In this document: positions 1,392 through 47,761 of the stretch, one piece after another
Layout: each line of letters opens with the position of its first letter
How positions within the stretch are numbered: the stretch's first letter is position 1
NCBI RefSeq assembly: GCF_000828085.3
Contig: NZ_JXCA02000001.1
Location: 782,742 to 846,741, forward strand
Length of the DNA stretch: 64,000 bases
From: Scytonema tolypothrichoides VB-61278
GTDB lineage: Bacteria; Cyanobacteriota; Cyanobacteriia; Cyanobacteriales; Nostocaceae
Reading direction: 5' to 3'
Translations under genes and position numbers: made by a program
The notes under the pieces: generated by a model
Told to the model about the DNA's origin: nothing
The model's input: the letters and a program-made list of their open reading frames with translations, nothing else
Database searches by the model: none

Positions 1392-3126
<1,735 letters not shown>

Positions 3127-3156
3127 AAATGGTATCATGTTGAATGATGTCTATTT

Positions 3157-3499
3157 GGGGCTGTAGCTCAGCAGGATAGAGCGAGCGCCTCCTGAACTAT
3201 CGGGCACTATAGGGGAAACTCTATGAGTGAATGTAGTTAAATTCGGTGAACCCTAAAAAGATAAGAAAAGGTAGGATTAGTTGTCTTTTGACCACAATGC
3301 TGACACTTCATGGGAATACCGAGCCAAGCCTGAGCATGAAACTATGTCATTTCTTATGCAGGTCTGCTCAGGAAGGTGTAGAGACTAGAAAGCTACCACC
3401 TAAGGGCTTAAAGCCTACGGTGAAGGTATAGTCCAGAGAGTGGGGAAACTCACACAAATCTGAAGCGCTAGGTCGCCGGTTCGAATCTGGCCAGTCCCG
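3157..3499 (+). tRNA. tRNA-Arg(CCU), interrupted by a group I intron
   Basis: Exons at 3157-3193 and 3463-3499 fold into a complete cloverleaf. The acceptor stem GGGGCTG pairs with CAGTCCC (one G-U), followed by discriminator G. The D arm is GCTC/GAGC. The anticodon stem AGCGC/GCGCT closes loop CTCCTAA with anticodon CCT, and the T arm GCCGG-TTCGAAT-CTGGC is standard. CCA is not encoded. The two exons join exactly after the third anticodon base (T3193), the position used by group I introns in bacterial tRNA-Arg(CCU) and some other tRNAs. Unspliced, the anticodon stem cannot form, so the gene needs intron removal to work. It reads CCU, decoding the rare AGG codon. Confidence 0.9.
3194..3462 (+). 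ncRNA. Group I self-splicing intron in tRNA-Arg(CCU)
   Basis: The 269-nt insert follows a U at the end of the 5' exon and ends in G (3462), as group I introns do. Core elements are visible in the expected order: a P2-like hairpin near 3210-3225, a Q-like stretch near 3319 (ATACCGAGCCAAGC), an R-like stretch near 3375 (GGTGTAGAGACTAGA) and the S element ATAGTCC near 3428, which pairs with R to form P7. A GAAA-type hairpin (GTGGGGAAACTCAC) lies just before the 3' splice site. It carries no convincing homing endonuclease gene. Small size and core resemble the cyanobacterial tRNA introns usually classed IC3; that subclass is inference. Confidence 0.85.
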
Positions 3500-3846
3500 T
3501 CCTCTAATACACTTGATAAACGACTCGGGAAATCTTTGGATTTGCTTAAATGGAGGTTATGATCATCCATTGAATCTAGAGATGTTTGTTATTTGTAGGC
3601 ACAGATAATACAAAATCTGCGTCTGTAACTTCAAGCAACCTTGACAATTGCGAGTCGTGGGTTCTTAAAAATATCTCCTGATATGGACTTTAGAAAAGGA
3701 AGGTATTTACACTGGATTTGGTATAGAAAACTTGTGGAAAACAAACGTGACTCAATCACAAATGTGAGTTGATTTTTTAGCGCTTTGATAATGTACGTTA
3801 TGATTCTTGCAGCAAATTATGTTTAAGCAACCGAGGTGATAAGCCC
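3500..3846. other. Intergenic region with no recognised gene
   Basis: This 347-bp stretch between the split tRNA and the DUF218 gene has stop codons in all frames at short spacing and no tRNA-like fold that I could see. A GAGGTGA ribosome-binding site lies at its right end for the gene starting at 3847. Confidence 0.5.
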
Positions 3847-4792: not shown

Positions 4793-4952
4793 TCGTCAGG
4801 AGTTATGAGTTCTCAATTACTATCATAAATAAATCCAACACAAATAACACATCTTTTTTTTGCCATGTTTCAATCTTTTATCATTAAACTATACTTTCCG
4901 AGAAACTATACACATTTTTTTATGAATTATTTTTTATTATGACTAATGAGTC

Positions 4953-4980
4953 ATGACTCATGACTCATGACTCATGACTC
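4953..4980. repeat. Heptanucleotide tandem repeat (ATGACTC)4
   Basis: Four perfect head-to-tail copies of ATGACTC. The stop codon of the AI-2E-type permease gene (TGA at 4974-4972) is provided by this repeat, so repeat turnover could alter its last codons. Such arrays are the short tandemly repeated repetitive (STRR) sequences typical of heterocystous cyanobacteria. Confidence 0.85.
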
Positions 4981-6015
4981 AACTTCCGCTTTCATTTCAT
5001 CAATTTCAAATAAAGACACTAAAACTCCAGCAATCGGAATAGAAATAAAAAGTCCCAACAATCCTGCAACTTTAGCCCCAACAAGTAAAGCAAAAAAGAC
5101 AACAACAGGATTAAGATTGAGAGCACCTTGCATAATTCTAGGCGTAATTAAATTGTCTTGTATTTGTTGAAGTATGATGCAAGCTACTAAGACTTTGAGT
5201 GCCATCCAAACACTTTGTGATAAGACAATTAAAGTAATGATACTCACTCCCAATGTAGCTCCTATACCAGGAATGATGTCTAGTATTCCGACTATAACTG
5301 ATAAAATCAATGCAAAAGGCACTTTAATTATCAATAAAATCAGAAAAGTTGAAGATGTCAAAAATAAAGTTAATATCAGCTGACCTCGAAAAAATCCCAA
5401 GAAGTTACGTCTGATTATATTTGTAAATTTATCTCGTCGTCGCTGCGGTACTGTCTTTATAATAAAAGACCAAAGCTTTTCGCCGTCTAGTAACATAAAA
5501 AAAGCCACAACCGCAATCAAGAGAAAAGTCACAAAGTTAGTAATCATGCTTTGGAAAATATTTAAACTGTTAACAAGTAGGGATATAGCTTGATTTCGCA
5601 ACTGCTCTTCGATTACGCTCAAATCTATTGGCAAGTTACGATTACGAAGAAGAGCCTCTATCCGTTCTACTAACGGTATTAAAGAGTTTAAAAATGCAGA
5701 GACGGTATCAATTAATTGTTGCCCTTGAGATAAAACGGTTATGCCTACAGTAATTGTCAAACCACCAAGAAAAATAATACTCAATAGGAAAACGACAACA
5801 ACTGCTATACTGTGTGGTAAAAAGTGCCGCAGCCATTGTACAGGATAACTCAGTAAAAAAGCTAAAATGGCAGCAAATGTAAAAATAACAATGACTGATT
5901 GAAAATAATCTAGAAGTAGTACAATCGCCCACCCAGAAGCAACGAAAAGCAAAAAACGAACTAACGCCAGATTATTTAGGCGATACCAAAGATTGTTGGC
6001 ATCAAAACTGCTCAT
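4972..6015 (-). CDS. AI-2E family transporter (PerM/YdiK-like permease)
   Basis: The 347-residue protein has about eight hydrophobic segments in the family arrangement: two pairs near the N-terminus, a soluble stretch at about 85-145 (LNSLIPLVERIEALLRNRNL), then a C-terminal bundle. The conserved motif IPGIGATLGV and the following QIQDNLITPRIMQGALNLNP are diagnostic for the AI-2E exporter / PerM family. Members have been linked to autoinducer-2 export or Na+/H+ exchange; the substrate of cyanobacterial members is unknown. The gene is monocistronic as far as spacing shows. Confidence 0.85.
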   Translation of the reverse strand: MSSFDANNLWYRLNNLALVRFLLFVASGWAIVLLLDYFQSVIVIFTFAAILAFLLSYPVQWLRHFLPHSIAVVVVFLLSIIFLGGLTITVGITVLSQGQQLIDTVSAFLNSLIPLVERIEALLRNRNLPIDLSVIEEQLRNQAISLLVNSLNIFQSMITNFVTFLLIAVVAFFMLLDGEKLWSFIIKTVPQRRRDKFTNIIRRNFLGFFRGQLILTLFLTSSTFLILLIIKVPFALILSVIVGILDIIPGIGATLGVSIITLIVLSQSVWMALKVLVACIILQQIQDNLITPRIMQGALNLNPVVVFFALLVGAKVAGLLGLFISIPIAGVLVSLFEIDEMKAEVES

Positions 6016-33389: not shown

Positions 33390-33450
33390 TCAAAAATAAT
33401 TTAATTATTAAGGAACCGCCCGAAGCTTGTCCGGGCGGAGTGTGGTGTGA
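33390..33450. repeat. Inverted repeat upstream of trxA
   Basis: CCGCCCG at 33417-33423 pairs with CGGGCGG at 33432-33438, with an eight-base loop. It lies about 150 bases upstream of the trxA start. It could terminate a transcript coming from guaB3 or be a palindromic repeat. Confidence 0.5.
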
Positions 33451-33547
33451 GGAGTGAACGGAAACATGCGTCTCCGCTATCTCTATTCTAGGCGACATAT
33501 GCGATTTTTCCAGTAAGAGTTTAAGAGTCGGGAAAAATTTCATTAAC

Positions 33548-47717: not shown

Positions 47718-47761
47718 TTCCCTGTTCCCTGTTCCCTGTTCCCTGTTCCCTGTTCCCTGTG
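47718..47761. repeat. Heptanucleotide tandem repeat (TTCCCTG)6
   Basis: Six perfect TTCCCTG units, the longest heptamer array in the window. It lies about 75 bases beyond the TetR-family gene's 3' end. Confidence 0.9.

Follow-up and report, generated by a model that had tools for sequence, protein, structure and literature searches.

A group I intron with the probable remains of an antisense HNH gene splits the tRNA-Arg(CCU) gene of Scytonema tolypothrichoides VB-61278 behind the anticodon

Group I introns are known in the tRNA-Arg(CCU) genes of alpha-proteobacteria and in the tRNA-Ile(CAU) gene of Azoarcus; they belong to subgroup IC3, in which the tetraloops contact P8 and P5. The intron described here resembles them, by description and not by sequence, as a small anticodon-loop ribozyme with a 5' exon ending in the anticodon and GAAA loops on P2 and P9, and differs in its cyanobacterial host and in the putative antisense HNH relic of loop L5. 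The tRNA-Leu(UAA) intron of cyanobacteria represents the same ribozyme class and is weakly similar (72% over 68 nt, E 9e-5), but it resides in another tRNA, splits the anticodon itself and otherwise shares little sequence.

Among the tRNA group I introns of cyanobacteria, a homing endonuclease has been described for that of Synechocystis tRNA-fMet, namely I-Ssp6803I, an enzyme of the PD-(D/E)XK type, whereas the genes in tRNA-Arg(CCU) are of the HNH (antisense) or LAGLIDADG type; Table 1 of the source paper assigns neither an HNH nor a LAGLIDADG gene to a tRNA intron (PMC1995217). A homing gene antisense to the ribozyme and placed in a peripheral segment is found in a nuclear rDNA intron of Didymium (PMC9548176), which, as far as the available part of that paper goes, combines eukaryotic rDNA, a group IE ribozyme, a His-Cys enzyme and P9.2, in contrast to bacterial tRNA, HNH and L5 here. 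In the available part of PMC5733544, two introns are given as known from earlier work and further ones of 22–49 nt are claimed, in our view too short for group I, while ‘CCU’ does not occur in the corresponding part of a bacterial review (PMC3984707). By its own account, in the part available, tRNAscan-SE 2.0 is not designed for detecting such introns (PMC8450103). Judged by title and the start of the abstract, none of the literature matches listed describes an HNH or a LAGLIDADG gene within the tRNA-Arg(CCU) introns of cyanobacteria, or a site shared by the two endonucleases, which does not imply absence from print. Thus, the copy in the window, that is, in the whole 64-kb stretch of DNA analyzed, belongs to a known kind of ribozyme, and the variation consists in the former antisense HNH gene and a second intron lineage; taken alone, it is an ordinary ribozyme plus a relic.

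With introns allowed, ARAGORN finds tRNA-Arg(cct) with a 269-nt intron at 3156–3502 of the window, and with introns off it finds no tRNA gene at all in the 64 kb (features are summarized in Table 1). Hence the expectation of the preliminary description that annotation would likely overlook this tRNA is justified: an intron-blind search skips the gene, and the genome then appears to have no tRNA-Arg(CCU). The joined exons indeed form a clean tRNA-Arg(CCU) cloverleaf, and ARAGORN identifies the spliced sequence as tRNA-Arg(cct). The intron is inserted between tRNA positions 36 and 37, directly after the anticodon, and the boundaries proposed earlier, U3193/G3194 and G3462/A3463, agree with empty sites: in three intronless genomes (G005, G058, G089) 74 of 74 bases are identical to the joined exons, with the halves abutting at the splice point. 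In the empty-site loci L090–L092 the tRNA gene follows the tocopherol cyclase gene, as it does in the window. Promoter-like sites number two in 801 bases compared to 1.3 expected by chance; of 59 loci with the intron, 41 have such a match upstream, a count given without a shuffle control. Elsewhere in the window we observe the cyanobacterial small RNA Yfr1 (33414–33477, minus strand; RF01116, 62.1 bits), a perfect 48-bp tandem pair at 1–95, and several heptanucleotide arrays, e.g., at 4939–4981 and 47718–47760.

Table 1. Features of the tRNA-Arg(CCU) locus in the window and introns of relatives with an open HNH gene
Feature	Position or length	Strand	Characteristics	Evidence
Tocopherol cyclase gene, upstream of the tRNA	1978–3126	+		PF14249, E 1.8e-166
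Promoter-like site	3111–3138	+	TTGGCA-16-TATCAT, TG ahead of second hexamer; 18 nt upstream of the tRNA	
tRNA-Arg(CCU), 5' exon	3157–3193	+	ends with anticodon C3191-C3192-U3193	ARAGORN, empty-site match
Group I intron	3194–3462, 269 nt	+	last base G3462	RF00028, ARAGORN i(39,269), covariation
Internal guide GGG	3202–3204	+	pairs with anticodon CCU (P1; U3193-G3202 wobble at 5' splice site)	invariant in 20/20 introns
P2	3205–3229	+	GAAA loop	both-side changes in 5/10 pairs
P3, 5' strand	3233–3238	+	partner 3391–3396	
Loop L5	3257–3308	+	where relatives have the HNH gene	intron comparison
Putative decayed 5' end of antisense HNH endonuclease gene	3267–3311	-	MKCQHCGQKTTNPTF; start codon 3311–3309	
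P7, 5' strand GACUA	3383–3387	+	partner 3429–3433	invariant in 20/20 introns
P8 hairpin	3397–3422	+	inner part 90% paired	both-side changes in 4/9 pairs
P9 hairpin	3440–3453	+	GAAA loop	comparison of 20 introns
tRNA-Arg(CCU), 3' exon	3463–3499	+		ARAGORN, empty-site match
Atlanticothrix silvestris intron	674 nt		antisense HNH gene in L5, 179 open codons (from first possible start)	
Chroococcidiopsidaceae MAG intron	678 nt		antisense HNH gene in L5, 155 open codons	
G586 intron	670 nt		antisense HNH gene in L5, 153 open codons	

A second intact tRNA-Arg(CCU) gene, named in the preliminary description as one of the findings that would speak against its reading, was not found in the genome, which is 99.97% complete with 7.89 Mb. 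Among its 43 tRNA matches, the Arg anticodons are UCU, CCG and ACG, and CCU is not represented; the joined 74-mer matches its own genome only with the two exon halves, and a search for the exact spliced sequence of anticodon arm plus T arm gave no match in it. Outside of the main set, adjoining low-scoring tRNA-Cys(gca) and tRNA-Ile(gat) were observed at G000:C7:78227-78371 (L040). One other group I intron scores above the cut-off in this genome, that of tRNA-Leu(UAA), 300 nt (G000:C5:366121-366390, L046).

The group I identity is supported by the covariance match required by the preliminary description, that to RF00028 (Rfam 15 cmscan, 3181–3455; 54.6 bits with the gathering score of 50, E 4.2e-11), which spans model positions 1–253 of 253. 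In the 73-pair structure derived for 20 introns, 98.8% of 1460 cells are paired, compared to 28–41% in slid controls; as MAFFT misaligned the 832–833-nt introns in an alignment of all 29, those were analyzed separately. Changes on both sides are observed in 11 pairs (P2, five; P8, four; P3 and P5, one each) and 43 cells, a level reached by none of 500 shuffles, while further pair types are not in excess (28 vs. 26.6 in shuffles, 126 of 500 reaching this number). P2, P8 and one pair each of P3 and P5 carry the covariation; the greater part of P3, P4 and P6 is invariant, and so are all pairs of P7, whose core elements, recognized already in the preliminary description, are supported in the 20 introns by conservation, with covariation absent there. 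In P3, one pair is A-U in five introns, all from Brasilonema, and G-C in the other fifteen, the remaining five pairs being invariant. Broken pairs include one P4 pair in five Calothrix-group introns and some cells in P2, P5 and P8.

The U3193-G3202 pair and the terminal intron G are present in all 20 introns, and the 73 pairs comprise the P3–P8 core, including P7 and its pseudoknot with P3; the GAAA loops on P2 and P9, a mark of the tRNA-intron subgroup IC3, are invariant as well (20/20). Energy folding by itself gives weak evidence (z -2.31, two of 100 shuffles folding equally well), and single-sequence folding, being unable to represent the pseudoknot, was set aside. From these comparisons, the window intron looks like a self-splicing group I ribozyme.

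When the window DNA was compared with 145 genomes of the family, 30 genomes had a match below E 1e-20, 101 had weaker matches (E at least 1.5e-14), which among the matches listed are exon matches, and 14 had no match. The joined 74-mer recovered 12 of these 14 and matches 143 of the 145 genomes, 30 as intron carriers and 113 contiguously (105 over all 74 bases, eight over bases 1–59); the 20 weakest contiguous matches, with 78–80% identity, are all tRNA-Arg(cct) by ARAGORN. No match was obtained in G013 and in G143, the latter carrying the genus label of the window and consisting of about 400 contigs. Pattern-search matches for a diverged tRNA-Arg(CCU) in the 14 genomes were rejected by eye as not being tRNA genes. 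In 29 of the 30 carriers the intron position given by ARAGORN is identical, with lengths from 231 to 833 nt; in G135, which has no call, the contig ends 234 nt past the match. A 3'-end pattern identified 53 contigs of the named collection, with the full intron recovered in 51, and the carriers include the cultured genera Brasilonema, Nostoc, Calothrix, Fischerella and Microcoleus. In the phylum scan, 32 of 386 genomes have a DNA match below E 1e-20, probably a lower bound, since diverged introns escape a DNA search. Hence a group I intron at tRNA-Arg(CCU) in cyanobacteria is as described earlier, while “sporadic” is an understatement in view of 30 carriers in 145 family genomes and 53 named contigs. 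The six Brasilonema introns, including the window copy, whose host we take to be a Brasilonema, form one group in the intron-core tree (95/93).

No intact endonuclease frame exists in the window copy, as stated in the preliminary description; what had escaped it is an apparent HNH stump on the minus strand of L5, corresponding to approximately the first 15 codons of the gene and reading MKCQHCGQKTTNPTF vs. MNCQHCGQNTTNPIF of the HNH gene (alignment length about 41 nt). A tblastn search of the 145 family genomes with the HNH protein gave a match at 0.001 in ten, and the match in the genome studied here is the intron itself (3264–3335, minus strand; 79% over 24 residues, E 5e-8), a part of this match being ribozyme core. 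In three other cyanobacteria (Table 1), L5 of this intron contains the HNH gene in open form and antisense orientation, and the two proteins scanned match Pfam HNH_2 (PF13391) with 35.8 bits in Atlanticothrix and 41.2 bits in the Chroococcidiopsidaceae MAG, the cut-off being 21 bits. In G060 the gene is full length but broken, and in Brasilonema UFV-L1 a longer HNH piece with stops occupies a 140-nt L5. G091 and G060, of one genus, have an identical tree core, with the HNH gene in one and a 26-nt L5 in the other. Open, broken, truncated and erased stages of the gene are represented in living relatives.

Searches with the HNH protein gave no plasmid match at 1e-5 and three phage records, all with identity below 60%. 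A free HNH homologue (40% identical, with a stop-free frame) is located inside a 16-tRNA array in L104 (G060:C1:5770750-5774241), where one predicted tRNA has an odd anticodon call (tcct). In L186, L187 and L188, relatives of the HNH protein, not intronic, lie just behind a tRNA with anticodon CAU and convergent to it.

The L5 match might be due to chance or to common RNA structure instead of a gene relic. Indeed, the stretch is short, residues 14–21 of the tblastn match are ribozyme core and would match regardless, and the score of the window L5 against a third HNH reference is equaled by nine of 200 shuffles. We nevertheless consider this very unlikely, as with the core excluded the 52-nt L5 aligned with the HNH gene start scores above 200 of 200 shuffles for two of the three references (two open genes and one broken), the alignment extends as far as the loop end, in the register and on the strand of the HNH gene, and all five other Brasilonema introns examined retain the region, one of them with the longer HNH piece. 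Moreover, 28 of the 31 introns with a short L5 (13–36 nt) have no match above all shuffles. These 31 are among the 41 scored out of 60 introns, the others being the three references and 16 without the necessary anchors (six of them LAGLIDADG introns); as the test comprised 123 comparisons, values of 0/200 in short loops (L113, L141) can be chance. Still less can be said for a small protein encoded at 3246–3431, which we regard as almost certainly not the case. The frame has 61 open codons and a GTG start, but it overlaps ribozyme helices, gives no Pfam match at E values up to 0.1, and of the five other Brasilonema introns just one keeps the 61 codons, while three have 30 and the fifth has an altered frame; given the missing Pfam match and the early stop in these relatives, it is not a conserved gene.

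Alternatively, the tRNA gene could be dead, the intron having lost splicing and AGG being read by tRNA-Arg(UCU) alone. The latter tRNA is present in the genome, and G013 and G143 lack a tRNA-Arg(CCU) match; on the other hand, three intronless relatives have exactly the same sequence in both exon halves, the variable P3 pair has been kept within the Brasilonema lineage by a compensatory change from G-C to A-U, and the match in 143 of 145 family genomes means that the gene is seldom lost. This makes a dead gene highly improbable. Given the sequence comparisons, we are strongly inclined to the explanation that the locus is a functional, ribozyme-split, sole tRNA-Arg(CCU) gene whose formerly mobile intron has lost its HNH gene. 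The gene would be transcribed with the 269-nt ribozyme in the anticodon loop, the guide GGG would pair with the anticodon CCU, a guanosine cofactor bound at P7 would cause the cut after U3193, and joining of the exons at G3462/A3463 would produce the only tRNA-Arg(CCU) found in the genome; this mechanism is taken from the family, while boundaries and structure are supported by comparison. The ancestor was probably a mobile intron whose loop L5 contained an HNH homing endonuclease gene in antisense orientation, the gene then eroding to its first 15 or so codons, and the intron has probably been inherited vertically in Brasilonema and retained because splicing works. With so little of the gene left, the window copy is now probably immobile, and it is probably what remains of a once mobile element.

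The second intron lineage in tRNA-Arg(CCU) carries a LAGLIDADG endonuclease gene in sense orientation between P7 and P3. One LAGLIDADG protein, used as query, matches 57 of 291 genomes of the order at 1e-6, and the best 30 loci are all in tRNA-Arg(CCU), 29 of them with a started frame of at least 150 codons; all three proteins scanned match Pfam LAGLIDADG_2. Together with the first ten introns, these loci have lengths of 832–969 nt and constitute 33 distinct introns, as seven of the 30 repeat among the ten. The P7 5' strand is found upstream of the gene in 36 of 36 rows, and a six-pair P3 with several compensatory types in 33 of 36, equivalent to 30 of the 33 distinct introns, three genomes being present twice; of the three failing rows, at least L076 and L209 fail on the CACC anchor alone. 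In several of the loci L189–L218 the endonuclease frame enters P3 and P8 of the ribozyme, and the query end MATT derives from that strand; the same bases would then serve both protein and RNA. The phage search with this protein gave nine records, all below 60% identity. In the intron-core tree (nine of 66 introns, three of them LAGLIDADG, were dropped for missing anchors, and the label “none” includes introns unscored for the stump), the seven retained LAGLIDADG introns form one group (95/83) with mixed host families, and two Desmonostoc species carry different lineages, which suggests transfer or replacement at this site.

We consider it likely that homing has an undescribed hot spot at the tRNA-Arg(CCU) anticodon in Cyanobacteriales, for which two intron lineages compete, one with a sense LAGLIDADG gene within the catalytic core and the other with an antisense HNH gene in L5, and that the window copy represents a late stage of gain, decay and loss. 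Where an endonuclease gene lies antisense within a tRNA intron, one may ask how its expression avoids disturbing the tRNA. With two endonuclease classes at one bacterial site and the HNH gene ranging from open to erased, both the homing cycle and the displacement of an intron by its competitor become testable at a small, well understood target.
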